Source: Dietzia sp. B32 (GTDB lineage Bacteria; Actinomycetota; Actinomycetes; Mycobacteriales; Mycobacteriaceae). Taken from it: a stretch of DNA of 64,000 nucleotides. Every line of letters starts with the position of its first letter. Position 1 is the first letter of the stretch. A program made the translations under genes and the position numbers. The stretch covers positions 744,001 through 808,000 of the forward strand of contig NZ_CP093845.1 of assembly GCF_024732245.1 (NCBI RefSeq), read 5' to 3'. Below the pieces are notes generated by a model, which saw nothing but the letters and a program-made list of their open reading frames with translations, did no database searches and had not been told where the DNA came from. Positions 18-35,586 of this stretch are shown piece after piece.

Positions 18-30
18 TGAGTTCAGCTCA
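18..30. promoter_or_regulatory. TGAA-N5-TTCA operator, site A
   Basis: TGAGTTCAGCTCA, a diverged member of the TGAA-N5-TTCA palindrome family found at ten other places in this window. It lies 41 bp beyond the stop of the acyl-CoA ligase, so it probably controls a minus-strand gene lying to the left of the window. Bound factor unknown. Confidence 0.45.
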
Positions 31-53
31 CACGGTCTTCGACCAACAGATCC

Positions 54-70
54 GGCGGCGGATCGCCGCC
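54..70 (-). terminator. hairpin after acyl-CoA ligase
   Basis: Perfect 7-bp stem GGCGGCG/CGCCGCC with a 3-nt loop, immediately after the ligase stop codon on the minus strand. There is no clear U tract, as is common in GC-rich actinobacteria. Confidence 0.4.
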
Positions 71-71
71 C

Positions 72-1568
72 CTACTCGTCGGTGACGAGCTCGGCCGCCA
101 GCGAGGCCGCACCGCGGCGGTCGAGCTTGCCCACCCGGGACTGCGGGAGCGCGCTGACCGTCCGGACGTATTCCGGCCACTTGAACTTGGGGAAGTCCGC
201 CGCCTCGAGGTGCTGACGGATCTCGTCCAGGCTCAGCGCCTCGCGTTCGGAGACGACGAGGGCCGCCGCCCGCTCCCCGAGCACGGGGTCGGGCACCGGG
301 ACCACACACACCTGGTGGATGCCGGGGATCGCCGCGAGGGCGTCCTCCACCTCGTTGATGTCGATGTTGCGCCCGCCGCGGATGATGAGGTCCTTCTCCC
401 GGCCGCGGATGCTCACGCTTCCGTCGTCGTGGATGAGGGCGCGATCGCCCGTCGCCAGGAACCCCTCGGCGTTGACGTCGGGCGCCACCGGCACTCCCCC
501 TCGGGCGTATCCCAGGAACAGCGAGGGGCCCTTCACCTGGAGGGATCCGGTCTCCCCGGCGCCCAGCGCGGCCCCGTCCTCGCCCACCACGCGCACCTCG
601 GTCCCCGGGAACGGGCGACCGTCACGCCCCAGGCGGGTCTCGACGTCGTCGGACGGGGACGGCGTGGTGTGGCCCAGGCACTCGGACATCCCGAACACCC
701 GCAGCAGGGTCGTGCCCAGCTTGACCTCCGCGCCCCGCAGGGAGTTCTGGTTCATCGGCCCGCCGCCGACCGTCATGGCCTTCATGGCCGACAGCGCCCC
801 GTCGGCGCCGTCGACGAGCGTGAGTTGCAGCGCCATGGTCGGCACCAGCATCGTCCAGGCCACACGGTGCTCGCGCAGGAGTGCGACCGCCGCCTCGGGG
901 TTCCACTTCTCGGACGCGATCATGGGCCCGCCGAGCATCGCCGGCAGGTACATCCCGAAGCAGATCGCGGCAGCCGAGGACAGCGGCACCAGGGCGCCCA
1001 CGGCGTCACCGGCTTCCAGCCCGACGGCCTCGATGGTGGACCGCCCGGCGTAGCGCAGGGCGTCCTCGGTCTGGATGACGCACTTGGGCCGTCCGGTCGA
1101 TCCGGAGGTCATGGCCGCGACGGCCCCTCCGTTCCACCGCCCGACCCCACGGGAGACCCCGTCGGCCGGACCGTGGACACCCCACCCGTCCAGGGCCTCG
1201 CCGGCCGCGACGAAGCCCTGCTCCGCCAGGCCCCACACCGCGGCGGCGTGGGAGTCGGCCACCACGATGTCCGGCTGGAGGTCCTCCATGGCGATGTCGA
1301 ACTCGGAGCGCGTCGCGTGACCGCTCATCACGGCGAGCATCCCGCCGGACAGGCCCACCGCGACCGCGGCCGCGACGGTCCGCCACGAGTTGTCGGCGCG
1401 GATGAGGACCGTCGACGGGGCGTCCGCCGCGGTGTCCAGCAGCTGCGCGAGGTCGCGGGCTGCGCGCACGACCGCCTCGGTCGAGTGGGTCCCGTCGCCG
1501 TCCACGACCGCCACGGCGTCGGGGGTGTGGGCGGCGCGTTCGACGACGTCGCGGGCCAACTGCTTCAT
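72..1568 (-). CDS. AMP-forming acyl-CoA synthetase (class I adenylating enzyme)
   Basis: Predicted to activate a carboxylic acid to its CoA thioester with ATP, the entry step of the catabolic pathway in this locus. The 498-residue protein has the P-loop TSGSTGRPK at about 154-162, a FGMSE adenine-binding motif near 295, a GDRALIHDDG hinge-region aspartate near 375 and the C-terminal GKLDRR containing the catalytic lysine near 480, so it is full length. The ATG follows GAGGAG at good spacing. It is the last gene of a ten-gene minus-strand run that begins with the crotonase; the 126-bp gap to the preceding dehydrogenase is a low-complexity G-rich (plus strand) tract. The substrate acid cannot be told from sequence; aromatic, alicyclic and fatty acids are all possible. 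Confidence 0.9.
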   Translation of the reverse strand: MKQLARDVVERAAHTPDAVAVVDGDGTHSTEAVVRAARDLAQLLDTAADAPSTVLIRADNSWRTVAAAVAVGLSGGMLAVMSGHATRSEFDIAMEDLQPDIVVADSHAAAVWGLAEQGFVAAGEALDGWGVHGPADGVSRGVGRWNGGAVAAMTSGSTGRPKCVIQTEDALRYAGRSTIEAVGLEAGDAVGALVPLSSAAAICFGMYLPAMLGGPMIASEKWNPEAAVALLREHRVAWTMLVPTMALQLTLVDGADGALSAMKAMTVGGGPMNQNSLRGAEVKLGTTLLRVFGMSECLGHTTPSPSDDVETRLGRDGRPFPGTEVRVVGEDGAALGAGETGSLQVKGPSLFLGYARGGVPVAPDVNAEGFLATGDRALIHDDGSVSIRGREKDLIIRGGRNIDINEVEDALAAIPGIHQVCVVPVPDPVLGERAAALVVSEREALSLDEIRQHLEAADFPKFKWPEYVRTVSALPQSRVGKLDRRGAASLAAELVTDE

Positions 1569-1694
1569 GGTGACGTTCTCCTCGGGGGTTGTGGGTGGGG
1601 TCCGCGGGCGACGGCGGGCGATGCGGGCGGGGGCGGTGCTGCTGGGGTGCGGTGTGGTTGCGGTCTGGTGTGGTGCGGTGCGCCGGGCGCGCGA

Positions 1695-2762
1695 TCAGGG
1701 GACGACGACGAGGCGACCGGATGCCCGGCCGTGACGCAGATCCTCATACGCCTCGAGGACGTCGTCCAGGCCCCGCACCTCCACCACCGCGCTCAGGCTC
1801 CCGGCGGCGGCCAGATCGAAGACCTCCCGCAGGTGGTGATGGGGGCCCCAGAAGGGCGCGGACACGCGCCACCCGCGGGGCATCGAACCGGTCTTGTCGA
1901 CGGTCAACCGCCCGCCGGCGGATCCCACGACGGCCAGTGCCCCGCCGGTCGCCATGAGCCCGGGGGCCGCGTCGAGGGTGTCGGGGGACCCGACGAAGTC
2001 CATGACCAGGTCCGCCCCGGTCCCGCCGGACAACTCGTCGACGAGCGAACGTGCCTCGGCGACCGAGCCGACCGCGTGGTGGGCCCCCAGCCGGAGCCCG
2101 AGGTCGCGGGCGGCGGCGCGCGGATCCACCGCGATCACCACCTCCGGGGACCGGGCCGCGAGCACCTGGAGCGCGAGGTGGCCGAGGCCTCCGATGCCGA
2201 CGACCACCACGATCGCCCCCTCGGGGTTGAGCGGCTGGTCGGCGACGGCGTGGTAGGCGGTGAGTCCTGCGTCCGTCAGCGGCGCGAGTGCCGGCCCCGC
2301 GGCCGGGTCGACCTCGACGAGGTGGCGGGGCGACGGGACGAGCATGTAGTCGGCGAGGCCGCCGTCGTACCCCGTCCCGCCTCCGATGGGTCCGGTCAGC
2401 TCGACGCAGTAGTTGTCGCGGCCGCTGCGGCACTTACGGCACTTTCCGCACGACCAGACGCCGTGCACGCCGCAGGTGCGGCCCACCCAGTCCCCGTCGC
2501 GGTCGTCCCCGACGGCGACGACGGTGCCGACGACCTCGTGGCCCAGGGTGAACGGCAGTTCGTACGGCAGGACGCCGGCCGCCGAGTCCATAATGTGCAG
2601 GTCGGAGTGGCACAGTCCGGCGGCGTCCACACGCAGCAGCACCTGACCGGGACCGGGCGTCGGGACGGGGATCCGGTCGAGGGTGGGGGCCGATCCCCAC
2701 TCGTGCAGGCGGACCGCCCGCATGACCTCGGGCAGGCCGGCGGTCCCCGTCGCCCCGGTCAT
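1695..2762 (-). CDS. zinc-dependent alcohol dehydrogenase (MDR family)
   Basis: NAD(P)-dependent medium-chain dehydrogenase oxidising a pathway alcohol to a ketone or aldehyde. Visible marks are the catalytic-zinc Cys in GLCHSD (about residue 51), GHE near 75, a structural-zinc lobe SCGKCRKCRSGRDNYC near 106-121 with four cysteines, and the Rossmann motif GIGGLG near 190. Length 355 aa is normal. The ATG overlaps the stop of the upstream SDR as ATGA, so I start here although in-frame sequence continues further upstream. The second zinc dehydrogenase of the window (16519-17502) lacks the structural-zinc cysteines present here, so the two are not recent duplicates. Confidence 0.9.
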   Translation of the reverse strand: MTGATGTAGLPEVMRAVRLHEWGSAPTLDRIPVPTPGPGQVLLRVDAAGLCHSDLHIMDSAAGVLPYELPFTLGHEVVGTVVAVGDDRDGDWVGRTCGVHGVWSCGKCRKCRSGRDNYCVELTGPIGGGTGYDGGLADYMLVPSPRHLVEVDPAAGPALAPLTDAGLTAYHAVADQPLNPEGAIVVVVGIGGLGHLALQVLAARSPEVVIAVDPRAAARDLGLRLGAHHAVGSVAEARSLVDELSGGTGADLVMDFVGSPDTLDAAPGLMATGGALAVVGSAGGRLTVDKTGSMPRGWRVSAPFWGPHHHLREVFDLAAAGSLSAVVEVRGLDDVLEAYEDLRHGRASGRLVVVP

Positions 2763-3523
2763 CGTGCGGTCCACCCGCCGTCCACCGTGAGGACGTGACC
2801 GGTGACGTAGCTCGAGGCGCCCGAGGCGAGGAAGAGCACCGCCCCGTCGACCTCCCCGGCGCGACCGCCACGACCGAGCATCGAGTTCCGGCGGACCCAC
2901 CCGGCGGACTTGTCGTTGGTGAACAGTCCGTCGGTCATCTCCGTGTCGAACCATCCCGGGACCACGGCGTTGACGCGCACGCCGCGGCGTCCCCACTGCC
3001 CGGCGAGCTCGCGGGTGGTGCCGATGACGGCGGACTTGCTGGCCGCGTATCCGGCGCCCCCGATGGGCGCGGTGGAGACCAGACCGACCACCGACGAGAC
3101 GTTGATGATCGACATCTCCCGGTCCTCGGGCAGCGCCTTGACGGCGGACACCGACAGGTGGAACCCGGAGGTGAGGTTGACGCGCAGGATGTCGTCGAAC
3201 TCCTCGGCGGACTCCGTGAGCGCGTCGGGCGGTCCCGGACGACCGGCGTTGTTGACGAGGATGTCCACCGCACCGTTGATGCCGGATGCGGTGGAGATGA
3301 GGCGCTCGCGGTCGGCGGGGACCGTGATGTCGCATTCGACCGGCACGACGGATGGCAGGTCCGCGGCCAGCGCGGCGAGACGGTCCGCTCGGCGGGCCGC
3401 GGCGACGACGGTCGCCCCGGCCGCGGCGAGGGTCCGGGCGAACCCGTCACCCAGACCCGAGGACGCGCCGGTGACCACGGCGACGCGGCCGGTCAGGTCG
3501 AACAGCTCTGCAGGTGAGGCCAT
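2759..3523 (-). CDS. short-chain dehydrogenase/reductase
   Basis: Classical SDR of 254 aa: cofactor motif TGASSGLG near the N-terminus, NNAG, catalytic Ser in INVSSVVG and the YAASK active-site pair, with the family ending VDGGW. It probably oxidises a hydroxyacyl-CoA or a cyclic alcohol in this beta-oxidation-type operon. The start is the ATG 1 bp after the stop of the next SDR, and the stop overlaps the start of the zinc alcohol dehydrogenase, so translation is likely coupled. The arginine-rich second residue block of the cofactor loop (AARRADR) hints at NADP(H), which is weak evidence. Confidence 0.88.
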   Translation of the reverse strand: MASPAELFDLTGRVAVVTGASSGLGDGFARTLAAAGATVVAAARRADRLAALAADLPSVVPVECDITVPADRERLISTASGINGAVDILVNNAGRPGPPDALTESAEEFDDILRVNLTSGFHLSVSAVKALPEDREMSIINVSSVVGLVSTAPIGGAGYAASKSAVIGTTRELAGQWGRRGVRVNAVVPGWFDTEMTDGLFTNDKSAGWVRRNSMLGRGGRAGEVDGAVLFLASGASSYVTGHVLTVDGGWTAR

Positions 3524-3524
3524 C

Positions 3525-4289
3525 TCAGTACACCGCCGTCCGTCCACCGTCGACCGGGATGAGTGCGCCGGTGGTGTACCCGGCCTGGTCGGAGGCGAGG
3601 TGCACGACCATCCCGGCGAGCTCGCGGGGGTCACCGAGGCGGCCGGCGGGCAGACGGCCCACGACCAGCCCGAGGAACTCGGAGTCCCAGTCCGCCGCCA
3701 TGTCCGAGGCGAAGGCCCCCGGCATGATGCAGTTGACCCGCACCGTGGGGGCGTATTCCTGGGCGAAGGCGCGGGTGAGGGCGTTGAGCCCGTTCTTCGC
3801 CGCCGCGTAGGTGGCCTCCTGCGGGCTGGGTCGCTCGGCACCGATGCTGGAGATGTTGATGATCGAGCCTCCCCCGGCCTTGACCATCCGGTCACCGGCC
3901 ACCGCCATGAGACGGAACGGGCCCTGGAGGTTGACCTCGATCGTCTTGGTGAACAGTCCCTGGGTGACGTCGAGCGAGGTCGGCGCGAGGGGCGCTATCC
4001 CGGCGTTGTTGACCACGATGTCGATCGAACCATGGTCGGCGACGATCTTGTCGACCGCGGGCTCGATCGCGTCCCAGTCCCCCACGTGCAGCGCCAACGC
4101 GTGCGCGGCGGTCCCGGTCGCCTCGGAGATCTCGCGGGCCACGGCCTCGCACTGGTCGGCCTTGCGGCTGGAGACGATCACGGTGGCGCCGGCCTCGGAC
4201 AGAGCCAGGGCCATGGCCTTGCCCAGTCCGCGGGTGGCGCCGGTGACCAGGGCGACCTTACCGGCGAGAAGAGTGGACGGGTAGCTCAT
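3525..4289 (-). CDS. short-chain dehydrogenase/reductase
   Basis: Classical SDR of 254 aa with TGATRGLG, NNAG, INISSIG and YAAAK motifs and a VDGGR end. Probable role: oxidation of a hydroxyacyl-CoA or alcohol intermediate. ATG at 4289 overlaps the stop of the upstream ACAD10/11-like gene (ATGA). It is only distantly similar to the adjacent SDR, so the two probably act on different intermediates. A SSRKAD cofactor loop suggests NADP(H), but this is inference. Confidence 0.88.
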   Translation of the reverse strand: MSYPSTLLAGKVALVTGATRGLGKAMALALSEAGATVIVSSRKADQCEAVAREISEATGTAAHALALHVGDWDAIEPAVDKIVADHGSIDIVVNNAGIAPLAPTSLDVTQGLFTKTIEVNLQGPFRLMAVAGDRMVKAGGGSIINISSIGAERPSPQEATYAAAKNGLNALTRAFAQEYAPTVRVNCIMPGAFASDMAADWDSEFLGLVVGRLPAGRLGDPRELAGMVVHLASDQAGYTTGALIPVDGGRTAVY

Positions 4290-5515
4290 GCCGATGCCTC
4301 CGACGTGGTGGACGGGGTGTACTTCTTCAGCTCCAGGCGGGCCATGGTGCGCAGGTGGACCTCCGACGGCCCGTCCGCGATCTGCAGCGCACGGGTCAAC
4401 GCGAAGAACCGGCCGAGGACGTTGTCGTCGCTGACACCCGCGGCGCCGAACGTCTGGATCGCGCGGTCGACGACCCGGTGGGCGGTCTCCATCGCACTGA
4501 TCTTGATCGCCGCGACCTCGGACCGGGCGGCGGCGTTGCCCTGGGTGTCCATGAGCCAGGCGGCCTTGAACGTGACGAGCCGGATCTGGTCGATCTCGAT
4601 GCGGCTGCGGGCGATCCACTCCCGGATCACGCCGCGCTTGGCGAGCGGTTCACCGAAGGCGACGCGGTCCGTGGCGCGTTGGCACATCATCTCGAGCGCC
4701 CGCTCGGCGATGCCGATGGCGCGCATGGCGTAGTGCATCCGGCCGGGCCCGAGACGCCCCTGCGCGATGGCGAATCCGCCGCCCTCCTCCCCGAGCATGT
4801 TCGTGACGGGGACCCGGACGTTCTCGAACAGGACCTCGCCGTGGCCGAGCCGGTCGTGGTAGCCGAGCATCGGCAGGTCGCGAACGATGGTCACGCCCGC
4901 GGTGTCCGTCGGGACGATGATCATCGACTGCTGGCGGTAGGTGCTCGCCTCCGGGTCCGATTTGCCCATGACGATCATGAACTTGCAGTCCGGGTCGATC
5001 ACCCCGGAGGCGTACCACTTGCGTCCGTTGATCACGTACTCGTCACCGTCGCGGACGATGCTCGTGGAGATGTTCGTGGCGTCCGAGCTGGCGACCGCGG
5101 GCTCGGTCATGGCGAAGGCCGACCGGATCTCGCAGTTGAGCAGGGGCTCCAGCCACTGCTTCTTCTGCTCGGCCGTGCCGTACAGGGCGAGGATCTCCAT
5201 GTTCCCGGTGTCCGGGGCCGAGCAGTTGATCGCCTCGTTGCCGATGAGCGACCGGCCGACGATCTCCGCCAGGGGGGCGTATTCGAGGTTCGTCAGGCCG
5301 GCGCCGAGGTCACCGTGGGCCATGAAGAGATTCCACAGGCCCTGCTCGCGGGCGATGCGCTGCAGGTCGCGCATGATCTGGGGCTGCTCGTGCGGGTTCT
5401 CGTTCTCGGCGACCTGGCGGTCGTACACTGCCTCGGCCGGGTACACGTGTTCGTCCATGAACACCTGCAGCTTCTCGGCGAGCTCCGCCGTCCGCGGGGA
5501 ATACGCGAAATCCAT
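4286..5515 (-). CDS. acyl-CoA dehydrogenase, ACAD10/11 type
   Basis: A flavoprotein of 409 aa that resembles the dehydrogenase half of mammalian ACAD10/ACAD11: the FAD/substrate motif MTEPAVASSDATNI, the central GPGRMHYAMR stretch and the signature ADGPSEVHLR near residue 383, where classical family members have GGTxExxR. In that family (and in LvaC of levulinate catabolism) the enzyme acts on 4-phosphoacyl-CoA, losing phosphate to give an enoyl-CoA. The gene directly upstream encodes the matching kinase domain, in the same order as in the ACAD10/11 fusion. The assignment to the subfamily is by motif; the 4-hydroxyacyl-CoA role is inference from family and context. Its stop overlaps the next SDR start. 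Confidence 0.85.
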   Translation of the reverse strand: MDFAYSPRTAELAEKLQVFMDEHVYPAEAVYDRQVAENENPHEQPQIMRDLQRIAREQGLWNLFMAHGDLGAGLTNLEYAPLAEIVGRSLIGNEAINCSAPDTGNMEILALYGTAEQKKQWLEPLLNCEIRSAFAMTEPAVASSDATNISTSIVRDGDEYVINGRKWYASGVIDPDCKFMIVMGKSDPEASTYRQQSMIIVPTDTAGVTIVRDLPMLGYHDRLGHGEVLFENVRVPVTNMLGEEGGGFAIAQGRLGPGRMHYAMRAIGIAERALEMMCQRATDRVAFGEPLAKRGVIREWIARSRIEIDQIRLVTFKAAWLMDTQGNAAARSEVAAIKISAMETAHRVVDRAIQTFGAAGVSDDNVLGRFFALTRALQIADGPSEVHLRTMARLELKKYTPSTTSEASA

Positions 5516-5542
5516 GGTCTGTCTCGTTTCTCGGGTGTCGCG

Positions 5543-6529
5543 TCAGGCCAGGCGTTCGATGCCGGTGACGATGAGGCGGTTGATCGTGTCGGGGAGGAGT
5601 TCCTGGGCCGGGTCATGGTGCCGGCCCTCGCGGTGGCGCCGGAGGTTGTGGCCCATGATCGCGGCCATCTTGAAGCGGCCGAGCGCGTCGAACCAGGTAA
5701 AGTCGGTGAGTGGACCGGCGGCGGCGCTGTAGGTGTCGATGAGCTCCTCCGGCGTCGGCAGTCCGGCGACCTCGCGACCCACGCCGGGGAAGTTGGTGCC
5801 GTCGGCAAAGACGAGGAACCAGCCGAGCTCGACCCGCGGGTCCCCCGGGCTCCAGATCTCCCAGTCGATGAGCGCGGCCGGCTCGGTGCCGTCGGACAGG
5901 ATGTTGCCCAGTCGGTAGTCGCCGTGCACCAGCACGGGGTCCACCGCATCGGGGATCCGCGCGGTCAGCAACTCCTCGAACCGCGCGGCGTCGGGGACCA
6001 GCTCCGGCGGCACGGCGGCCATGGTGCGGGCCCAACGCCTGAGCTCGTCGGCGGGCGAGAGGACCTCGCCGTCGACCGGGAGAGAGTCCAGCGGTACCGC
6101 GTGCAACACCGGCAGGACCTCCGCGGCGCGGCGCATCCGCGCCGCGGCCAGGGTGGGCTCGACGGCCGGGTCGTCCAGGACCGGCTCGAGGGACTCCCCC
6201 CGCACCAGGTCCATGGCGAACCACGCCGGCTCGGTCTCGTCGGTGGCACGGATTCCGGGCACGGGCACGTCGGTCCCCGCGAGCGCGGTCATGATCCGGG
6301 CCTGACGGAGCATGTCGTGACGCCCGATGGCCTTCTGCCCCGGGGGGACGGACTTGATGACGAACGACTCGTCGGCGCCGGAGATCCGGTAGGTCAGGCC
6401 CGAATGCCCGCCGAGCATCGGGTCGAGCGCTCCGAAGGGCCCGGACACGCCGGCCGCCTCGAGCCCGGCGACCACGCGGTCACGCAGCTGTGTCTCGTGG
6501 GTGGTCTCGGTGGTGTCGGCGGCGGTCAT
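5543..6529 (-). CDS. APH-family kinase, LvaA/ACAD10-11 kinase-domain-like
   Basis: Aminoglycoside-phosphotransferase-fold kinase of 328 aa. The ATP lysine sits in FVIKSVP, the catalytic Brenner loop is HGDYRLGN (about 200-207), and the metal-binding acid is in IDWEIW (about 219-224). Proteins of this branch phosphorylate the 4-hydroxyl of 4-hydroxyacyl-CoAs (LvaA) or form the N-terminal half of ACAD10/11. Sitting 27 bp upstream of the ACAD10/11-type dehydrogenase and overlapping the preceding ACAD stop as ATGA, it is unlikely to be an antibiotic-resistance gene. No small LvaB-like accessory protein was recognised nearby. Confidence 0.85.
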   Translation of the reverse strand: MTAADTTETTHETQLRDRVVAGLEAAGVSGPFGALDPMLGGHSGLTYRISGADESFVIKSVPPGQKAIGRHDMLRQARIMTALAGTDVPVPGIRATDETEPAWFAMDLVRGESLEPVLDDPAVEPTLAAARMRRAAEVLPVLHAVPLDSLPVDGEVLSPADELRRWARTMAAVPPELVPDAARFEELLTARIPDAVDPVLVHGDYRLGNILSDGTEPAALIDWEIWSPGDPRVELGWFLVFADGTNFPGVGREVAGLPTPEELIDTYSAAAGPLTDFTWFDALGRFKMAAIMGHNLRRHREGRHHDPAQELLPDTINRLIVTGIERLA

Positions 6530-7740
6530 GGCCTCGGCTCTCTGGGTAGGCCGAGCACACGCTCGGCGAGGATGTTTCGCTGGATCTCGTCGGTCCCCCC
6601 GGCGATCCGGTAACCCGGGGCGCCCAGGACGTGTTCCGTCCAGGCCCAGGTGCCCCAGCGATCGCCGCGCACCGCGAGCTCGGGACCGAGCAGGGTGCGT
6701 ACCGTCTCGGAGGTGCGGGCCATCGTGTCCGTGGCCAGGAGCTTGCCCACGGAGGCCTCCGGCCCGGGCTCGCGTCCGGCCACGACCGCGGCGGCGACCC
6801 TCATCCCCACCAGACGCTGCACGAAGCTCCGGCAGATCAGGTCGGCCACCTGGTCGCGCTCGAGGGCATCGAGATCGCGTCCGAGGTTCCGCGCGAGCTC
6901 GACCGCCCGGTCGGCGTTCTCGAGACCGAGTCCGCCCGAGTCCAGGCGCTCTGCGGCCAGGACCGTCAGCGCGACCTTCCAGCCGGCGCCGACGGGGCCC
7001 AGACGGTAGCGGTCATCCAGCTCGACGTTCTCCAGGAGGACCTCGTTGAACGAGCTGCCCCCGGTCATCTGGCGGATCGGCCGCACCGTCACACCGGGCG
7101 CGTCCATCGGCACGATGAACACGGTCAACCCCTGGTGCTTGGGGACGTCGGGATCGGTCCGGCACACGGCGACGCCGTAGTCGGACACCGGCGCACCGGA
7201 GGTCCACACCTTCGCGCCGTTGATCACCCAGCGTCCGTCGCGCTCGACGGCCCGGGTACGGACCGCGGCCAGGTCCGACCCGGCCTCGGTCTCGGAGAAG
7301 AGCTGGCACGCGATCAGATCGGTGCGCAGGAGTGCCCGGACGTACTCGGCGCGCTGCTCCTCGGTGCCCCACTGCGCGATGGTCGGGGCGATGAGTTGCT
7401 GCGTGACCGGGAACATCTCGGTCCGCTGCGGCAGGTCGTACTCCGCCTCCAGCCGCCGGAAGGCCAGGTCGAAGGCGATCGGTAGGCCCCGGCCGCCGTA
7501 CTCGGCACCCCAGGTCAGCGCGCCGAAGCCGGCGTCGAACTTGGCCTGCTCGTAGTCGCGGCGCCGGTCGGTCTCCTCGCGCTCCTGCTCGGGGGTCCAG
7601 TTCTCGAACACCACCACCGCGTCGGAGCCCTCACCCCAGGGTCGGGCCTGGCGCGGCGAGGCGACGGTGGACAGCCAGTCGCGGGCGGAGTCGATGAACT
7701 CGGACAGCCCCGCGGGCTGGGTGTCGGTAGCGGCGGTCAT
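6526..7740 (-). CDS. acyl-CoA dehydrogenase
   Basis: FadE-type FAD enzyme of 404 aa, introducing the alpha-beta double bond in an acyl-CoA. Motifs seen are FSETEAGSDLAAVRTRA, INGAKVWTSGA and the C-terminal GGTDEIQRNILAERVLGLP. Both ends overlap neighbours: the ATG lies within the thiolase stop region (ATGA) and the stop overlaps the APH-kinase start, so it belongs to the coupled operon. It is a different subfamily from the two other dehydrogenases here (4286-5515 and 23275-24396), which implies several distinct acyl-CoA dehydrogenation steps. Confidence 0.9.
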   Translation of the reverse strand: MTAATDTQPAGLSEFIDSARDWLSTVASPRQARPWGEGSDAVVVFENWTPEQEREETDRRRDYEQAKFDAGFGALTWGAEYGGRGLPIAFDLAFRRLEAEYDLPQRTEMFPVTQQLIAPTIAQWGTEEQRAEYVRALLRTDLIACQLFSETEAGSDLAAVRTRAVERDGRWVINGAKVWTSGAPVSDYGVAVCRTDPDVPKHQGLTVFIVPMDAPGVTVRPIRQMTGGSSFNEVLLENVELDDRYRLGPVGAGWKVALTVLAAERLDSGGLGLENADRAVELARNLGRDLDALERDQVADLICRSFVQRLVGMRVAAAVVAGREPGPEASVGKLLATDTMARTSETVRTLLGPELAVRGDRWGTWAWTEHVLGAPGYRIAGGTDEIQRNILAERVLGLPREPRP

Positions 7741-8894
7741 CGCCGGCCCCCTTCCAGAACGGTGCAGGCGCTGATCCCGGGCGCGCCGTAGACGTGGGTG
7801 AACCCGAGCCGCGGTGCCCCGGGGACCTGTCGGTCGCCGGCCTCGCCGCGCAGCTGGGTGACGATCTCGTGGACCTGACGGAGGCCGGATGCCCCGATGG
7901 GCTCGCCGTTGGCCAGGCAGCCGCCGTCGGTGTTGACGGGGAGACGTCCACCGATTTCGGTCTCGCCGCGTTCGAGCATGGACTCCTGCTCGCCGTCCTC
8001 ACAGAACCCGCATTCGGCCATGTGCATGATCTCCGCCCCGGACTCGGTGTCCTGGAGCTGCGCCACGTCGATGTCGGCCGGGGCGACGCCGGCGGTCTCG
8101 AACGCCCGGCGGGCCACCTCGGTACTCACGCTGCTCGGCTCGCCGTCGCCCTGCACGGCGGGGCTGAAGACCTCGAACGACCCGAACGGGCGGGTCCCGG
8201 TGGACACGGCCCGGACGGCCACGGCGCGGCCGCCCATCCGGGCCGCCACCTTCTCCGAGGCGAGCAGGATCGCGGCGCCGCCCTCACCCGGGTTGCAGAA
8301 CATGAACTGGGTGAGCGGGTCGTTGACCATCGGCGAGGCGGCGATCTCCTCCAGGGTCTTGGGATCGCGGCGCCAGGCGTTGGGGTTGATGCTGCCGTTG
8401 CGGTAGGCCTTCTCCGCCACCCGTGCGAGCGTGGTCTCGGAGATTCCGTGGCGGGCCATGTACCGGGTGATCTTCATGGCGAAGAACTGGGTGGTGACCA
8501 TGAGCCCGTGGGTGCCGTACCCCTCGGTGAGGCCCCAGTCCTCGGCCCGCGGGTCGAACGCGCCGCGCGGGTGCTTGTCGAACCCCACGGCCAGGGCCAC
8601 CTCCGCGGCTCCGGACCGGATCGCGTTGATGGCCGAGACCAGTGCGCTACCGCCTGTGGCGCACCCGTTCTTGACGTTGGTGAAGGGGATCCCGGTCAGC
8701 CCCAGGTCGGCGACGAGGGTGTCGGCGAGGCCGGAGCCGTCGCTGCCGCCGAAGGCGATCTGCACGTCCTTCCACTCCAGGCCGGCGTCCGCCAACGAGG
8801 TGCGGATGGCGGTCACGGCCATCTGTCGGCCGGTGACCCCGTCCTGGCGTCCGAACTTCGACAGTCCCGCGCCGACGATGAAGACGTCCGACAT
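7737..8894 (-). CDS. thiolase-fold acetyl-CoA acyltransferase/aldolase, SCP-x/Ltp-like
   Basis: Thiolase-superfamily protein of 385 aa of the lipid-transfer/SCP-x type: nucleophile region NGCATGGSA near residue 85, QDTESG near 285, NTDGGCLANGEPIGASG near 325 and a C-terminal YGAPG...AC. Members that are encoded next to a DUF35 protein act as a complex and either thiolyse 3-ketoacyl-CoA or, like Ltp2, carry out retro-aldol side-chain cleavage. The DUF35 partner is directly upstream with a 1-nt TGATG overlap, which fixes the start. Which of the two reactions applies cannot be decided here. Confidence 0.87.
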   Translation of the reverse strand: MSDVFIVGAGLSKFGRQDGVTGRQMAVTAIRTSLADAGLEWKDVQIAFGGSDGSGLADTLVADLGLTGIPFTNVKNGCATGGSALVSAINAIRSGAAEVALAVGFDKHPRGAFDPRAEDWGLTEGYGTHGLMVTTQFFAMKITRYMARHGISETTLARVAEKAYRNGSINPNAWRRDPKTLEEIAASPMVNDPLTQFMFCNPGEGGAAILLASEKVAARMGGRAVAVRAVSTGTRPFGSFEVFSPAVQGDGEPSSVSTEVARRAFETAGVAPADIDVAQLQDTESGAEIMHMAECGFCEDGEQESMLERGETEIGGRLPVNTDGGCLANGEPIGASGLRQVHEIVTQLRGEAGDRQVPGAPRLGFTHVYGAPGISACTVLEGGRR

Positions 8895-9271
8895 CAGTTC
8901 TCCTCGGTGGTGGTGGCCGCCAGGGAGAAGCGCGGCACGGGATGGGCCTCGACGAGGTGGACCTCGCTGCCGATCAGCTCGGCGGGAGAGGTGCCGTCGA
9001 GGAGCGCCTCGACCTTCACGCCCTCGGGCAGTTCGACGTATCCCACGGCGAAGGGGGTGAACCCGCCTGCCGGCGGGACGTAGGGGGGTGACTTGGGCGG
9101 GAAGCGCTGGATCGTCGCGGTCCACACCGTCCCGGTGGTGGACAGGTCGATCCCGGTCGTCTCGGCTCCGCCGCAGCGCTGACAGCTCACGGACGCGGGA
9201 AACGCCACGGTCGAACAGTGGTCACACCGACTCCCCCGCAACCGGGGCGACTCGTTCTCGTTCTGGGTCAT
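8894..9271 (-). CDS. DUF35 OB-fold/zinc-ribbon partner of the thiolase
   Basis: A 125-aa protein with an N-terminal zinc ribbon (CDHC about residues 16-19, CQRC about 30-33) followed by an OB-fold core containing GTVWTATIQRF and PFAVGYVELPEG. Proteins of this family (ChsH2 C-terminal domain-like) bind and support the thiolase or aldolase encoded beside them, consistent with the 1-nt overlap with the thiolase gene. The 58-bp gap to the upstream crotonase shows no promoter, so it is probably in the same transcript. Confidence 0.88.
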   Translation of the reverse strand: MTQNENESPRLRGSRCDHCSTVAFPASVSCQRCGGAETTGIDLSTTGTVWTATIQRFPPKSPPYVPPAGGFTPFAVGYVELPEGVKVEALLDGTSPAELIGSEVHLVEAHPVPRFSLAATTTEEN

Positions 9272-9329
9272 GGTGTGCAGTCCTCCTGTTGTCCTGTGAC
9301 GTTTCCCGCTCCGTGATGAGACCGTCAGA

Positions 9330-10118
9330 TCAGCGGCCGACCCACTTGGGCTCGCGCTTCTCGAGGAACGCCTGGACGCCCTCCTTGCCGTCGGCCGACT
9401 GCAGCGAGTTGCCGACCGCGAAGTGCTCCATGATCATGAGCGACTTGATGTCGGCGTCGAGGCCCTGGTTCACGGCCATCTTGGTGAGCTTCATCATGAA
9501 CGGGCTCTTGTCGGTGAGCTGTCCGATGAAGTTCTCGACGCACTCGTCGAGCTGGTCGGCCGGGGCCGAGTCGTTGATGAGGTCGAAGTCCTTGGCCTCC
9601 TTGCCCGAGAGCAGCTTGCCCGTGAGCATGAGCTCCTTGGTCTTGCGCAGGCCGATCATCCGCGGGAGGCGGTAGATCGGGCCGGCGCCGCCGAACAGGG
9701 CGCGACGGATGTGGAAGTCGCCGATCTTGGCGTCATCCGCGGCGATCGCGAAGTCGCAGGAGATCATGAGCTCGAAGCCGCCGGCGGTGACGTAGCCCTC
9801 GAGGACCGCCACGGACGGCGTGTTCATCGAGTAGAGGCGGTCACAGACCTGGGCCGAGAGGACGCCGACGTCCATGGCGTTGGTGGTGCCGACGAAGTCG
9901 CCCAGCAGCTCGTTGAGGTCGAAGCCCGAGCAGAACTGGTTGTTCACGCCACGGAGGACCAGGACCTTGAGGTCGGGATCGGCGTCGACCTCCTTGATGA
10001 TCTCGTCCAGGCGGTGCAGGAGCTCCACCGTGACGGCGTTCTTGACATGCGGGCGGTTCAGCCAGACGCGGGCGACGTCGCCGTCCTTCTCCAACAGCAC
10101 GTGGTCGGTGTCAACCAT
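9330..10118 (-). CDS. enoyl-CoA hydratase/isomerase family (crotonase) with altered active site
   Basis: Crotonase-fold protein of 262 aa. The CoA-binding FCSGFDLNEL and the first oxyanion/acid segment TAGGFELMISCDFAI carry the Glu of the first catalytic position. The second segment reads IGDFHIRRALFGGAG, where hydratases have a PE pair; the second catalytic glutamate seems to be absent, replaced near a histidine. It may therefore be an isomerase, hydrolase or ring-cleaving member rather than a hydratase. It is the first gene of the ten-gene operon and has two TGAA-N5-TTCA operators in its upstream 120 bp. Confidence 0.85.
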   Translation of the reverse strand: MVDTDHVLLEKDGDVARVWLNRPHVKNAVTVELLHRLDEIIKEVDADPDLKVLVLRGVNNQFCSGFDLNELLGDFVGTTNAMDVGVLSAQVCDRLYSMNTPSVAVLEGYVTAGGFELMISCDFAIAADDAKIGDFHIRRALFGGAGPIYRLPRMIGLRKTKELMLTGKLLSGKEAKDFDLINDSAPADQLDECVENFIGQLTDKSPFMMKLTKMAVNQGLDADIKSLMIMEHFAVGNSLQSADGKEGVQAFLEKREPKWVGR

Positions 10119-10139: not shown

Positions 10140-10157
10140 TGAACTGGATTCAGTTCA
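10140..10157. promoter_or_regulatory. TGAA-N5-TTCA operator, site B (best copy)
   Basis: TGAACTGGATTCAGTTCA: TGAA-N5-TTCA nested in perfect outer arms TGAACT/AGTTCA. It lies 21 bp upstream of the crotonase start, where a bound repressor would block the promoter of the main catabolic operon. Confidence 0.65.
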
Positions 10158-10195
10158 TGTCTACAGGGTCGCGGCGAGTCCGTCAACCCATATCT

Positions 10196-10208
10196 CGAAC
10201 TTGGTTCA
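10196..10208. promoter_or_regulatory. TGAA-N5-TTCA operator, site C
   Basis: CGAACTTGGTTCA, one mismatch from the TGAA-N5-TTCA pattern, 56 bp further upstream of the crotonase than site B. Two sites before one operon suggest cooperative or looping control. Confidence 0.55.
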
Positions 10209-10238: not shown

Positions 10239-11348
10239 TCAGGCGACCGCGGCGAGCTCCTGGAGCGGGTAGATCTTGAGGCTCTCGGAGCGGAAGCTGA
10301 TGACCACGGGCTCGCCCGGCTCGGCACGCCGGAGCCACGCTCCGTGGGTCGCGGAGGAGGCCCGGAGCCGGTACTTCTCCGGGCCGGCGCCCACCACCAC
10401 GTCGTAGTGTCGACCACCGAACTCGGCGGACAGCAGGGTGGCGTCCAGGACGATCTCCCGGTCGGACACGTCCTCGTCCGTCCGGTGCAGGACGATGTCG
10501 TCCGGCCACAGCCGGGCCGCGATGGCCTGGTGGCCGCCGGTCTCGCAGCGGAGCGGCAGCTCGGTGCCCGCGGCCGTGGTCCACTCGAGCCCCGTGCGGT
10601 GCAACTCGAGCCTGTTGGACATCCCGATGAAGTCCGCGACGTACTCGCTCACCGGGTGGTCGAACACGTCCTGGGGTGTGGCGAGCTGCTCGATCTTGCC
10701 GTGCTTCATGATCGCCAACCTGTCGCCAAGGGCGAAGGCTTCCGAATGGTCATGGGTGACGAACACCGCGCCGAACCCGAGTTCCGAGTGCAACCGGTGG
10801 ATCTCGGTGCGGACCTGGTCGCGGAGTAGTGCGTCGAGATTGCTCAACGGCTCGTCGAAGAGCACCAGGTCGGGCCTGGCCGCCATCCCCCGCGCCACCG
10901 CGATGCGCTGCTGCTGCCCACCGCTGAGCTGGGCCGGATACCGGTCCAGTAGGTGGCCACAGTCGACCATCCCGGCGGCTTCCTCCACCCGTCCGGCGTT
11001 GAGCGCGTCCTTCATCTTGCGCGCCTTGAGCGGGTACGCGATGTTCTTGCGCACGGTCATGTTCGGCCACAGCGCGTAGGACTGGAAGACCATTCCGATG
11101 CTGCGCTTGTTGGGAGGGACGTTCACCCGGTTGGCCGCGTCGAACATCGGGTCACCGTCGAAGGTGATCGATCCCTCCTCCGGGGTCTCGAGCCCGGCGA
11201 GGCACCGCAGCGTCGTGGTCTTCCCACACCCACTGGGCCCGAGCAACACGAGGAACTCCCCCGCGTCGATCTCCAGGTCCAACTGGTCCACGACGACGTT
11301 CGTTCCGTACTTCTTGGTGAGACCGGAGATCTCGATTCTGGCGGTCAT
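10239..11348 (-). CDS. ABC importer ATPase (PotA/FbpC type)
   Basis: Cytoplasmic ATPase of 369 aa energising the importer formed with the permease and lipoproteins upstream. Walker A GPSGCGKTT near 38-46, signature LSGGQQQR near 141, Walker B LVLFDEP near 165, switch histidine in VTHDHSEA, and a C-terminal ~130-aa TOBE-like domain. The class transports ferric iron, polyamines, thiamine or small organic anions; the catabolic context argues for an organic substrate or related acid, which is inference. It is the last gene of the binding-protein/permease/ATPase run, 120 bp before the crotonase operon. Confidence 0.9.
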   Translation of the reverse strand: MTARIEISGLTKKYGTNVVVDQLDLEIDAGEFLVLLGPSGCGKTTTLRCLAGLETPEEGSITFDGDPMFDAANRVNVPPNKRSIGMVFQSYALWPNMTVRKNIAYPLKARKMKDALNAGRVEEAAGMVDCGHLLDRYPAQLSGGQQQRIAVARGMAARPDLVLFDEPLSNLDALLRDQVRTEIHRLHSELGFGAVFVTHDHSEAFALGDRLAIMKHGKIEQLATPQDVFDHPVSEYVADFIGMSNRLELHRTGLEWTTAAGTELPLRCETGGHQAIAARLWPDDIVLHRTDEDVSDREIVLDATLLSAEFGGRHYDVVVGAGPEKYRLRASSATHGAWLRRAEPGEPVVISFRSESLKIYPLQELAAVA

Positions 11349-11430
11349 CAGACTTCCTCGTAGTCGTGCCGGCGGTGAGGCGCGGCGGTGGGACGTGGGT
11401 ACCGGGCGGGCGTCGACCCGCGGGCGGGGC

Positions 11431-13104: not shown

Positions 13105-13202
13105 GTGGGATCGACCTCTGCTTCGTCGTGCGCGCGGGCGGGTGTCGGCCATGGGCGGCGGGCCCGCGGGAGTTGCCGACCGCTGCGAGGAACTGAGGAG
13201 CG

Positions 13203-14255: not shown

Positions 14256-14294
14256 CGCTTTCCTCCTTTCACGACTCACCCGAGCGAGTCGAAT

Positions 14295-14307
14295 TGAACT
14301 AGATTCA
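14295..14307. promoter_or_regulatory. TGAA-N5-TTCA operator, site D
   Basis: TGAACTAGATTCA, an exact TGAA-N5-TTCA. On the minus strand it sits just downstream of a candidate promoter TTGCAT-17 bp-TATTCT (about 14341-14313), so binding would block the start of transcription of the ABC importer genes. Confidence 0.6.
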
Positions 14308-14387
14308 GATGGAGAATATGACGTGTGTCACCCGTATGCAAGAGCGAGCGGACGTTAACTTCCGGGGACCCACTTACGGGTGCGGAG

Positions 14388-15488: not shown

Positions 15489-15522
15489 CCGAGGCCTTCC
15501 TGCTCTCACGAGTCCACTGACT

Positions 15523-15535
15523 TGAACTCACTTCA
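15523..15535. promoter_or_regulatory. TGAA-N5-TTCA operator, site E
   Basis: TGAACTCACTTCA, an exact match to the pattern, 35 bp upstream of the second binding-lipoprotein start. A CATACT -10-like hexamer on the minus strand lies just upstream of it. Confidence 0.6.
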
Positions 15536-20911: not shown

Positions 20912-20924
20912 TGAAGTCAGTTCA
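20912..20924. promoter_or_regulatory. TGAA-N5-TTCA operator, site F
   Basis: TGAAGTCAGTTCA, exact in the outer half-sites, 53 bp upstream of the FAD-oxidoreductase start and 21 bp beyond the stop of the MFS gene. Confidence 0.55.
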
Positions 20925-24421: not shown

Positions 24422-24434
24422 TGAGCCGAGTTCA
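24422..24434. promoter_or_regulatory. TGAA-N5-TTCA operator, site G
   Basis: TGAGCCGAGTTCA, extended to an outer AGTTCA arm. It lies 25 bp upstream of the acyl-CoA dehydrogenase start in the 117-bp divergent region shared with site H. Confidence 0.55.
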
Positions 24435-24496
24435 GTTCATCCCATGACAGCACGGTGAGCCGCGTCACGCAAGCCCCTTGAAAACCGGGCGCCAAC

Positions 24497-24509
24497 TGAA
24501 CTAAGTTCG
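24497..24509. promoter_or_regulatory. TGAA-N5-TTCA operator, site H, overlapping promoter
   Basis: TGAACTAAGTTCG ends 4 bp before the ATG of the first NTF2-like gene. A candidate promoter TTGAAA-18 bp-TAAGTT has its -10 inside the operator, so the leader would be very short and binding would directly occlude RNA polymerase. Confidence 0.55.
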
Positions 24510-24513
24510 ATTC

Positions 24514-24891
24514 ATGTCGCTGACCGAATCCACGCTCGTCTCCTATTACGCGAAGATCGACGCGGGCGACCTCGACGGGGGGCTGGAACTCCTGGCGCCC
24601 GGGGTCTCGTTCGCCATCATCCTCCCCGGCGCCGCTGTCCGTGGCGAGAACCGACAGGGGGTACGCGAGTACCTCGAGGGCCGGGGCCCGGTGGATCGTC
24701 GCCACGTCCCCACCCACGCGACCCGTGAGGGTGAACTCGAGTTCGTCTACGGGGCGGTCGTCGAGGACGGGGTGACCATCACCGGGCACTTCCTGGCCTC
24801 CGCGAGGATCGGCGACGACGGACTGATCGCCGGGTACCAGGTCGCCTTCGACCCGGAGCTCGGGCTCGTCTCCCCCACCCTCGACCGATGA
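24514..24891 (+). CDS. NTF2-like (SnoaL-type) small protein
   Basis: A 125-aa protein with the NTF2-like pattern: an N-terminal helix ending YYAKIDAGDLDGGLELLAPG, then strands containing GREYLEG-like and FVYGAVVEDG segments. The fold is shared by ketosteroid isomerases, limonene-epoxide hydrolases and polyketide cyclases, but no catalytic set can be assigned. First of two plus-strand genes divergent from the dehydrogenase operon; no separate ribosome-binding site is visible because the operator occupies the leader. Confidence 0.75.
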   Translation: MSLTESTLVSYYAKIDAGDLDGGLELLAPGVSFAIILPGAAVRGENRQGVREYLEGRGPVDRRHVPTHATREGELEFVYGAVVEDGVTITGHFLASARIGDDGLIAGYQVAFDPELGLVSPTLDR

Positions 24892-32974: not shown

Positions 32975-32999
32975 GTCGTACCCCTCCGTACATCCGAGT

Positions 33000-33012
33000 T
33001 GAATTCACTTAG
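33000..33012. promoter_or_regulatory. TGAA-N5-TTCA operator, site I (weak)
   Basis: TGAATTCACTTAG, two mismatches in the right half-site, at the same distance from the first gene of the P450 operon as better copies elsewhere. The rest of the 319-bp gap 32975-33293 holds the inverted repeat and terminator listed next and no gene I can see. Confidence 0.4.
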
Positions 33013-33293: not shown

Positions 33294-33659
33294 CTACTCG
33301 CGGCCCTCCTCAGCTACCAGCTGGACTCGCGACACGTCGTACACATCGATGTGCTGGACGAAGCCGGTGTTGTCGCCGTTGGCGGCCGCCCACCCCTCAC
33401 TCTCAGGTGCCTTGGCCAGCGCCTCCTGCGACTCAAACGCCATGATCGAGAACGCATCCGGCTTGGGGGCCCCTTCCGGGAGCCCCCAGTTCACCATCGA
33501 GTTGTTATTGAGGAAGGTGTGCCACCAGGCCACGCCCGGAATGGACTTTCCTATGTCGGCGTGCTTGCTCAGGTAATGGTCACGGAACTCCTCGGGGGAG
33601 GTACCCGCCCACCGGTAAAGCGCGAAGAGATACGTGGGCTGATTCTCGATGTGGGCCAT
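33294..33659 (-). CDS. EthD-family small protein
   Basis: A 121-aa dimeric alpha/beta-barrel protein with the EthD hallmark EEFRDHYLSKHADIGKSIPG (about 23-42) and a beta strand at FSIMAFES. The founding member, EthD, is needed for ethyl tert-butyl ether degradation by the P450 system EthABC, and others are decarboxylases or cyclases. Its presence behind a P450 gene echoes that arrangement. Last gene of a three-gene operon closed by the terminator at 33236-33274. Confidence 0.82.
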   Translation of the reverse strand: MAHIENQPTYLFALYRWAGTSPEEFRDHYLSKHADIGKSIPGVAWWHTFLNNNSMVNWGLPEGAPKPDAFSIMAFESQEALAKAPESEGWAAANGDNTGFVQHIDVYDVSRVQLVAEEGRE

Positions 33660-33736
33660 TTTCCGGTCCTTTCGGATTTACGCCGGCAGCGACTGACCTG
33701 CCGGGCTTAGGGTCTGGGGGTGATACTGGCGCCGGG

Positions 33737-35011
33737 CTAGGCGACGAACCGCACCGGGAGCGCGGCGGGCCCGTAGAAGTTGAAACTCTTCTTGGCGGCC
33801 GGATCCGGGTCCACCAGTTCGACGCCGGAGAACCGGGTGATGATCTTCTCCAGCACCATTCTCAGCTCCATGCGGGTCAGCGACGTACCGGGGCAGACAT
33901 GCGGCCCGCCGCCGAACGCGACGTGACTGGCCGCGAGCTGCTTCCGGTCAATGTCCATGCGGTCGGGGTCCTCGAAAACCTTCGGGTCGCGGTTCGAGGT
34001 ACCCATACCTACCCAGAGCATGTCGCCGGCCCTGAGCTGCTGTCCGCCGAGTTCGATGTCCTCGGTGACAGCTCGGAACGACCCCTGGACCGGGGAGAAC
34101 ATGCGCAGCATCTCCTCCATGAACTGCGGAATCCGTTCGGTGTCCGCCTTCAGTTCGGCCCACATCTCAGGATGGCGGCCGAGGTACTCGACCATCTTCG
34201 ACAGGGCGGTAGCCGAGGTCTCGCTGCCACCGACCATCGTCAGCTGGAGCACTTGGAACAAGTCGTCCCGGTTGAGCGGGCTCTCGCTGGCGGTATTGAG
34301 TTTCACGATCCTCGAGATGAGGTCTTCGGTCGGGTTCACCTCCCTGTCATCGATCTGTTTGTTGCAGTAGGCGTCGAATCCGTACCTGGTATCGACGAGC
34401 GCCTCGATCTGCTCGTCGGTCTGGTCAGGGTTACCGACCATTGAGTTGAACCCCTCGGTCCAGTCGAGCATCTGAGGGACCATGTCCCGCGGGAATCCGA
34501 GGATGTCGGCGATGACAGTCATTGTGTACTTGTTGGCGAAGTCATCGACAAACTCGACCTCCTCGCCGGCATCGACTCCGTCGACGAAGATGTCCGCGGT
34601 CTCCTCGATGCGCGGAGCCCAGGACTTGAGCGCGTTCGGCGTGAGCGCGCCCATGATCAGCCGGCGATGGCGACCGTGCTCAGGCGGGTCGGCGAAGAGC
34701 AGGACCTTCCGGTCACTCGACCCGTAGTCGTCACCCAGTTCCTTCTTGGCCCCGGGACGTTTGGCAGCCATCTCGACCATCCGCTGCCACTCATCGGAGA
34801 CCTGCTCCCCCAGCATCTTCTTTGTCGAGAACACCGAGGCATCTTTGAAGACCTTCTGTGCGTTCTCGTGGTCGGCCACAACCCAGAACCCCAGGGCGTC
34901 ACTGCGAGAGACCGGGCATTCCGAGCGCACCTCGTCGAAGGCGGTGTGCGGGCACTTGAGTTGCTCGGCGTCTAACCCGAAGAATTTCTCGTACTCGTAG
35001 CTGGTGGTCAC
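33737..35011 (-). CDS. cytochrome P450 monooxygenase 2
   Basis: A 424-aa class-I P450 with heme loop FGGGPHVCPG (thiolate Cys near 378), I-helix MVGGSETSATAL near 250 with the normal acid-Thr pair, and K-helix EEMLRMF near 305. It differs from P450 1 in the heme loop and I-helix, so it is not a recent duplicate. It has no ferredoxin of its own and may share the chain at 29.9-31.2 kb. ATG at 35011 overlaps the preceding small-protein stop (ATGA). Confidence 0.93.
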   Translation of the reverse strand: MTTSYEYEKFFGLDAEQLKCPHTAFDEVRSECPVSRSDALGFWVVADHENAQKVFKDASVFSTKKMLGEQVSDEWQRMVEMAAKRPGAKKELGDDYGSSDRKVLLFADPPEHGRHRRLIMGALTPNALKSWAPRIEETADIFVDGVDAGEEVEFVDDFANKYTMTVIADILGFPRDMVPQMLDWTEGFNSMVGNPDQTDEQIEALVDTRYGFDAYCNKQIDDREVNPTEDLISRIVKLNTASESPLNRDDLFQVLQLTMVGGSETSATALSKMVEYLGRHPEMWAELKADTERIPQFMEEMLRMFSPVQGSFRAVTEDIELGGQQLRAGDMLWVGMGTSNRDPKVFEDPDRMDIDRKQLAASHVAFGGGPHVCPGTSLTRMELRMVLEKIITRFSGVELVDPDPAAKKSFNFYGPAALPVRFVA

Positions 35012-35397
35012 CTGACGCCTCCGATGTGCGTGAAACCACTGACGAAGTCGAAGGTCCTGACGCTTCCGAAGCCCTCCAGTAGACCGTGAAGCTCGTCGTT
35101 CATGGGGCCGTAGATCCGCAGATCCAGCACATCGACGGTCGACATGAGCTGCCCGATCTTGTCCTGATCCATCTCCTTGAGGTGCCGAAGCATCGCGTCG
35201 GCGTCCGCATAGTGCTCGTGGGCGAAGAGGATCCGAGCCTCCTCATCCAGGTAGAAGTTGTGGCCGCGAATGTGCTCCCCCTCGGCCGAGGAGCTGGCGC
35301 TCACCTCGGCGAGTATCGCCCGGAGATCGTCGATCGTGACGTCGTCGTGGATCTTCATTTCCGAGGTGGCTCGAACCTCGTTGCTACTGTCCGCCAT
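35008..35397 (-). CDS. small ABM-like (dimeric alpha/beta barrel) protein
   Basis: A 129-aa protein: N-terminal strand/helix DDVTIDDLRAILAE, then HNFYLDEEARILFAHEHYADADAMLRHL, the characteristic strand-helix unit of antibiotic-biosynthesis-monooxygenase and related barrels. I recognise the fold pattern, not a specific family. Translationally coupled to P450 2 (ATGA). It heads the operon and has an operator 22 bp upstream. It could be an accessory, cyclase or oxygenase protein. Confidence 0.7.
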   Translation of the reverse strand: MADSSNEVRATSEMKIHDDVTIDDLRAILAEVSASSSAEGEHIRGHNFYLDEEARILFAHEHYADADAMLRHLKEMDQDKIGQLMSTVDVLDLRIYGPMNDELHGLLEGFGSVRTFDFVSGFTHIGGVR

Positions 35398-35419
35398 ATC
35401 GGCATCCCTTCGAATGAAT

Positions 35420-35432
35420 TGAACTCGCTTCT
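35420..35432. promoter_or_regulatory. TGAA-N5-TTCA operator, site J
   Basis: TGAACTCGCTTCT, one mismatch, 22 bp upstream of the ABM-like gene in the 229-bp divergent region to the next plus-strand start. The spacing to the start matches sites B and I. Confidence 0.55.
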
Positions 35433-35573
35433 GGACCATATGTGACGAACAGCACACTGTCAACGACGGAGCCCGCACTAGCCTTGGGCGAAGAACACGC
35501 AGGTCAAGGCGCAATTGTCGTCGATTTGCTCAAGTTGTCTACACGGTGCCGCCTCCACCACTACGGTTCGGCG

Positions 35574-35586
35574 CAACTTCAGTTCA
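35574..35586. promoter_or_regulatory. TGAA-N5-TTCA operator, site K
   Basis: CAACTTCAGTTCA; on the complementary strand it reads TGAACTGAAGTTG. It lies 40 bp upstream of the plus-strand mini-ORF and NTF2-like gene, so the divergent intergenic region has one operator per direction. Confidence 0.45.

Follow-up and report, generated by a model that had tools for sequence, protein, structure and literature searches.

The DNA analysed here, referred to as the window, is a stretch of 64,000 nucleotides from Dietzia sp. B32 (contig NZ_CP093845.1, positions 744,001 to 808,000). The genome is one contig of 3,725,606 bases, window positions equal genome positions minus 744000, and genes were called with a simple codon-usage caller. 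The window contains a run of catabolic and importer genes (the main arm) and, beyond glyA and coaA, two cytochrome P450 operons (the P450 arm), with a short palindromic motif recurring in front of the operons of both. The original prediction listed eleven TGAA-N5-TTCA sites and proposed one regulon under one regulator encoded outside the window. That proposal is well supported: an uncharacterised TetR-family gene, here called TetR1, starts 31 bp beyond the left edge with the motif upstream of it, and is very probably the missing regulator. Judging from sequence, the sites are likely operators of TetR1, acting as a repressor. The genes and predicted operators are as follows (window positions unless marked as genome).

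Genome 740487-740504: extra site left of the window, 21.1 bits, between a MaoC-type gene and a divergent LysR-substrate-domain gene.
Genome 741012-741029: extra site left of the window, 24.2 bits with a perfect core, before an SDR gene (SDR-A).
Genome 743285-743297: extra site left of the window, 21.9 bits, before an EthD-domain gene (EthD-A).
Genome 743349-743969, minus strand: TetR1 gene, 206 amino acids, 650 to 31 bp left of window position 1.
13..30, minus strand: TetR1 operator (predicted as 18-30, here extended), 11.5 and 14.3 bits, 44-49 bp before the TetR1 start.
72..10118, minus strand: gene run for crotonase, ChsH2-type OB-fold protein, thiolase, acyl-CoA dehydrogenase ACAD-B, APH-type kinase, ACAD-A (ACAD11-type), two SDRs, ADH and AMP-ligase.
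10140..10157, minus strand: proximal crotonase-operon operator, its 18 bp identical in six aligned Dietzia.
10158..10186, minus strand: putative crotonase promoter TTGACG-17-TAGACA, found by eye in the alignment and missed by the scan, ending at the operator edge.
10196..10208, minus strand: distal crotonase-operon operator, 17.6 bits, present in G034, G055, G063 and G075.
10239..15425, minus strand: ABC importer (ATPase, permease, two solute-binding lipoproteins).
14290..14307, minus strand: operator before solute-binding protein 1 (SBP-1), 21.1 bits, conserved in relatives.
15518..15535, minus strand: operator before solute-binding protein 2, 22.3 bits, conserved in relatives.
20912..20924, minus strand: operator before the FAD-dependent oxidoreductase/OYE genes, 22.3 bits, conserved in relatives.
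24422..24439, minus strand: operator before acyl-CoA dehydrogenase ACAD-C, 16.8 and 15.1 bits, conserved in relatives.
24497..24514, plus strand: operator before an NTF2-like gene pair, 20.2 bits, conserved in relatives.
32995..33012, minus strand: weaker operator before the P450-1 operon (NTF2-like, P450, ferredoxin, reductase, ALDH), 14.6 and 13.0 bits.
35415..35432, minus strand: operator before the P450-2 operon, 14.6 and 13.8 bits.
35435..35463, minus strand: putative P450-2 promoter TTGACA-17-TATGGT, found by the scan, ending 2 bp before the operator.
35574..35586, no strand assigned: predicted site, rejected here, 8.9 bits, absent from aligned relatives.

Sequence of the described kind is present at all 11 predicted coordinates, all sites are intergenic by our own gene calls, and neither glyA nor coaA has a site before it, as had been proposed. 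The motif itself is real, but TGAA-N5-TTCA fits exactly at only four of the eleven (10140, 14295, 15523 and 20912), where dinucleotide shuffles give an expectation of 0.17 exact matches in the window. The others depart from it by one mismatch (10196, 24422, 24497, 35420), two (18, 33000) or three (35574), and one-mismatch matches also occur outside the predicted list at 5323, 30923 and 37391, as well as at 10145 within the 10140-10157 site. Ten sites, lying 5-98 bp before a called start codon, recur at the matching place in Dietzia relatives. The eleventh, 35574-35586, was dropped from the family because it scores at chance level (a score of at least 8 bits is expected 22-36 times per 196 kb of Markov sequence) and is missing from the aligned relatives.

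A better consensus is the palindrome TGAACT-N-AGTTCA, mostly accompanied by a third half-site 5 bp further out. The commonest operator form is an 18-bp array, TGAAY-TGAAC-TNA-GTTCA, whose three half-sites are stepped by 5 bp and make up two overlapping palindromes. Half-sites were counted in 52 Dietzia (own genome included) and 156 other-genus upstream sites after removal of overlaps. A third half-site matching at least 4 of 5 positions accompanied 39 and 124 of them, respectively (random flanks, 4.4 and 14.7), and an exact one was found on at least one side in 24 and 49 (random, 0.6 and 2.9). Exact extra half-sites on both sides were almost never seen (0/52 and 1/156), hence the usual operator has three half-sites, not four. 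Rfam returned no match within the 64-kb window.

On the genome scale, TGAACTNNNTTCA occurs at six places, five of them within 741017-764924, and its reversed control at none. Allowing up to two mismatches gives 30 places, 11 of which fall within 740487-768509 (28 kb), compared with 5 genome-wide for the reversed control; the binomial P for this clustering is ~2e-16, for an interval picked after the sites were known and with two of the 11 places overlapping (754140 and 754145). Ten own-genome sites, each also taken as its reverse complement, went into a weight matrix that was applied at a threshold of 16 bits, with 'inside genes' referring to homology-mapped genes in relatives and other genera and to our own calls in the window genome. 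Across 196 kb of the own chromosome it found 11 sites upstream, 0 in genes and 1 elsewhere, a circular result because own-genome sites had gone into the matrix. Five Dietzia relatives (G003, G034, G055, G063 and G075) gave 52 sites before mapped genes, 0 inside and 1 elsewhere. The motif is thus not equally common inside genes; equal frequency there would have spoken against the original prediction. Among 73 other-genus loci, 177 sites were upstream, 14 in genes and 29 elsewhere; six column-permuted palindromic controls averaged at most 0.2 (relatives) and 2.0 (other genera) in any class. The motif is clustered, confined upstream and conserved. A chance collection of similar words, to which the seven of 11 predicted sites that break the stated pattern might point, is contradicted by this clustering, upstream confinement and cross-genus conservation, and we reject it as having practically no probability.

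Elsewhere in the genome, site 2973087 is probably a chance match, the surrounding DNA resembling by eye a repeat-rich surface-protein gene. Two TGAACGCCGTTCA copies lie one base apart at 2728349-2728375. At ~77108-84646 three motif-like words repeat at a 5157-bp offset among the matches listed, which suggests two copies of a ~5.2-kb stretch.

Conservation of individual operators was followed by position in the relatives and in an alignment of six Dietzia. The operators of crotonase, both solute-binding proteins, the FAD-dependent oxidoreductase, ACAD-C and the NTF2-like pair are in place in the relatives, those of TetR1, SDR-A, MaoC and the P450-1 operon recur with more change, and that of EthD-A is present in four of five relatives (G075 excepted). 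A further oxidoreductase gene has a site of at least 21 bits before it in all six Dietzia genomes that hold it, each of which also has TetR1; in G034 it adjoins the P450 arm, and the own genome has no such gene at E 1e-80 or better. On a contig of G063 away from the cluster (contig 18, L050:1765-2877), a further solute-binding-protein paralogue has the perfect operator TGAACTTAGTTCA upstream.

TetR1 matches Pfam TetR_N at 42.9 bits (cut-off 24) and, in its C-terminal part, TetR_C_24 at 46.3 bits (cut-off 26.4). The original prediction had proposed looking for a TetR/GntR gene that carries this site and regulates itself; TetR1 fits that description, its own predicted operator being among the weaker ones (14.3 bits). 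It is present in 11 of 23 Dietzia genomes and in 8 of the 61 genomes sampled from the family, the own genome included in both. Counting strict sites (at most one mismatch, including a few places far from the cluster), the 11 Dietzia genomes with TetR1 average 3.6 and the 12 without it 0.58; P-values for such site statistics ignore relatedness among genomes. Crotonase was found in seven of the 23, exactly those with at least four strict sites, the other 16 having 0-2. Across genomes, the number of motif copies thus goes along with the presence of TetR1 and of the core genes linked to it. Three genomes, G071, G072 and G073 (L045, L046 and L076), retain TetR1 with crotonase not found; G071 and G073 keep the site-bearing oxidoreductase gene, a target that may explain retention of TetR1 there.

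The motif could in principle be read by another regulator, for example TetR2 (genome 739066-739680), whose gene, conserved in Dietzia, is ~3.7 kb away from that of TetR1. We hold this highly improbable because TetR2 is present in 22 of 23 Dietzia genomes, with high site numbers in seven only. In other genera, motif and core genes accompany TetR1, in a sample that was drawn with TetR1 as bait and so cannot show the motif without it. This sample comprised 143 TetR1 relatives in named genomes, of which 80 loci were kept, from Dietzia, Streptomyces, Nocardioides, Pimelobacter, Nocardia, Williamsia, Gordonia, Rhodococcus, Rhodococcoides, Aeromicrobium, Tomitella and Sphaerisporangium. Relatives in the 11 actinobacterial genera other than Dietzia mostly adjoin the same core genes, and ten core genes are found next to TetR1 in 64-71 of the 80 loci (at least 45% identity). 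Where an other-genus locus had at least 60 bp before crotonase, a site of at least 14 bits was present there in 51 of 51 cases (46 Streptomyces, 3 Nocardioides, 1 Nocardia and 1 Aeromicrobium). Outside Streptomyces, the TetR1 gene itself has a site before it in 20 of 26 loci. In Nocardioides immobilis (L095, L115), two TetR1-like genes lie ~20 kb apart on one contig, the L095 copy without an operator.

The placing of operators relative to promoters bears on the direction of control. A scan of 13 own-genome operators found a promoter just upstream at three (SBP-1, P450-1 and P450-2), ending 2-5 bp before the operator. By eye in the alignment, further candidates precede the proximal crotonase operator (TTGACG-17-TAGACA, 0 bp) and that of ACAD-C (TTGCGT-17-TGTCAT, 4 bp). 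At the NTF2-like pair the -10 of the best candidate sits inside the operator. The seven remaining own-genome operators had no clear promoter upstream. With operators beginning 0-5 bp downstream of the -10 wherever a promoter is visible, the layout suits a repressor and suggests that TetR1 acts by repression. Activation instead of repression would be compatible with the small number of promoters at which operator position is clear, and FasR, a named TetR-type activator, is among the weak NCBIfam matches of TetR1; given the layout at the visible promoters, we regard activation as improbable.

Whether the P450 arm belongs to the same regulon is a separate matter. TetR1 might control the main arm only, the P450-arm sites being decayed or read by another regulator. 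The P450-arm operators score 13.0-14.6 bits, the remaining supported sites (that of TetR1 itself excepted) having best-core scores of 16.8-24.2, and in G003 the main arm is present with no P450 arm beside coaA. On the other hand, the P450-2 operator, amid variable flanks, is identical in the own genome, G055 and G063 and one base off in G034. Each P450 site scores as a pair of overlapping palindromes offset by 5 bp and has a promoter ending 2-4 bp ahead of it. At the P450-1 site, related sequence is in place at 13.5 bits or more in G034 and G063, and in G055 in the alignment only. Control of the main arm alone is, in our view, rather unlikely, and one regulator for both arms is likely; that both form one pathway, as originally suggested, is put forward as a hypothesis. 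The P450 arm lies beyond glyA-coaA in G034, G055 and G063, the contig stretch of G075 ends at coaA, and in G072 and G073 TetR1, glyA and coaA are neighbours. The glyA-coaA pair thus seems to be a stable core, to either side of which catabolic blocks have been added or lost.

Several observations weigh against TetR1 as the repressor acting at all these sites. Among Dietzia, G074 (83% complete) has TetR1 and no strict site, and G072 and G073 carry TetR1 without the main cluster, no operator preceding the gene in G073. Conversely, G066 keeps the ACAD-C/NTF2 operator, yet TetR1 and crotonase were not found, which may reflect an assembly gap; this strict operator lies between the NTF2-like and ACAD-C genes on contig 142 (L055:387-3073). 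In Streptomyces, TetR1 has its own site in none of 47 loci; the gene seems to be internal to an operon there. The scan saw a clear promoter ahead of only 3 of 13 operators, 14 sites fall in genes among the other-genus loci, and 19 of the 30 loose own-genome matches lie outside the cluster, with no convincing regulon gene at the seven of these 19 that were inspected. Even so, we still consider control by TetR1 likely.

The genes themselves hint at the pathway. ACAD-A matches ACAD11 chains (E about 1e-122 to 1e-123), and the kinase, encoded together with it in the crotonase run, matches the kinase portion of the same protein (E 6e-17); this likeness suggests a 4-hydroxyacyl-CoA step (PMC12440821). 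For the thiolase, SCP2-thiolases are the best match, followed by a benzoylsuccinyl-CoA thiolase subunit. The nearest PDB matches are an ancestral CYP125 for P450-2 and macrolide-type P450s for P450-1, neither of which fixes the substrate. A bile-acid substrate is not supported when weighed solely against the motifs reported for Nocardioides simplex VKM Ac-2033D, where the lithocholate-linked ones are KstR, KstR2, Lcin1 and Lcin2 (PMC7593942).

In the mechanism we propose, ligand-free TetR1 would sit on or beside promoters as a dimer or dimer of dimers. It would thereby block the operon running from crotonase to the ligase, the genes of the ABC importer, those for FAD/OYE and acyl-CoA dehydrogenase, the P450 operons and, except in Streptomyces, the TetR1 gene. 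Its release would come from an intermediate of the pathway, for which an acyl-CoA thioester is the likeliest candidate. The pathway would import an acid, activate it with CoA, pass through a 4-hydroxyacyl-CoA and end in thiolase cleavage. A bolder proposal, which we offer tentatively and with some doubt, is that TetR1 heads an undescribed, widespread actinobacterial 4-hydroxyacyl-CoA pathway, that two dimers bind the 18-bp operator on palindromes half a helical turn apart, and that Dietzia gained degenerate operators at two P450 operons. The implication would be one operator and one regulator for a large gene set tied to one pathway in Dietzia and 11 other actinobacterial genera. One reporter could then serve an inducer search, which might in turn reveal what substrate the linked P450s, importer and ACAD11-like enzyme handle. 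The operators, being graded and having or lacking a third half-site, form a natural set for studying the pairing of TetR dimers on DNA.

To the left of the window, TetR2 is accompanied by a second beta-oxidation gene set (genome 731416-739680), a stretch with no site of at least 14 bits. The neighbouring LysR substrate-binding-domain gene (genome 739745-740461), with no DNA-binding domain by Pfam, shares its operator with the divergent MaoC gene.

Among known regulators, the best NCBIfam match of TetR1 is FadR of Bacillus, rejected as an identity at 47.3 bits against a cut-off of 200. One FadR operator has outer half-sites TGAAT-N8-ATTCA, matching the outer pair here. KstR of mycobacteria is of TetR type like TetR1, and its NCBIfam model was matched weakly (38.9 bits, cut-off 280), so this identity was also discarded; in the KstR motif, TnnAACnnGTTnnA, AAC and GTT are 2 bp apart, versus 3 bp here. 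The structural match to KstR2 is likewise weak (E 1.5e-7).

The literature searched (mostly titles and abstract starts, with subscription papers and regulon databases outside its scope) gave nothing recognisable as this regulon; the motif spelling TGAATTCAGTTCA turned up only in an unrelated human mRNA study (PMC5300761), and other spellings gave nothing. KstR2 resembles TetR1 in being a local TetR-type repressor with a palindromic operator in its own promoter and a conserved catabolic regulon; its operator in mycobacteria and rhodococci was first found in that promoter, and sites lie mostly 22-82 bp before the start codon (PMC3068626). The KstR2 motif is the 14-bp AnCAAGnnCTTGnT, unlike TGAACT-N-AGTTCA with its third half-site (PMC3068626), and this different consensus, together with the weak structural match, led us to reject KstR2 as the identity of TetR1. 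KstR3 of Mycolicibacterium neoaurum also adjoins a DUF35 gene, a likeness by description rather than sequence (PMC10398937).

The ACAD10/ACAD11 route for 4-hydroxy acids likewise combines a kinase with an unusual acyl-CoA dehydrogenase (PMC12440821); here, by contrast, these are predicted from sequence as two separate genes inside a larger regulon. In the PDB, DarR of mycobacteria and rhodococci ranks second and third among the matches of TetR1. It differs in its motif (ATACT-N4-AGTAT) and its cyclic-nucleotide ligands, and two DarR dimers bind where palindromes overlap, three of the four half-sites of the wild-type operator being matches (PMC10636190). The predicted TetR1 operators are similar in having overlapping palindromes with three matching half-sites, and DarR thereby offers a precedent for possible two-dimer binding by TetR1 (PMC10636190).

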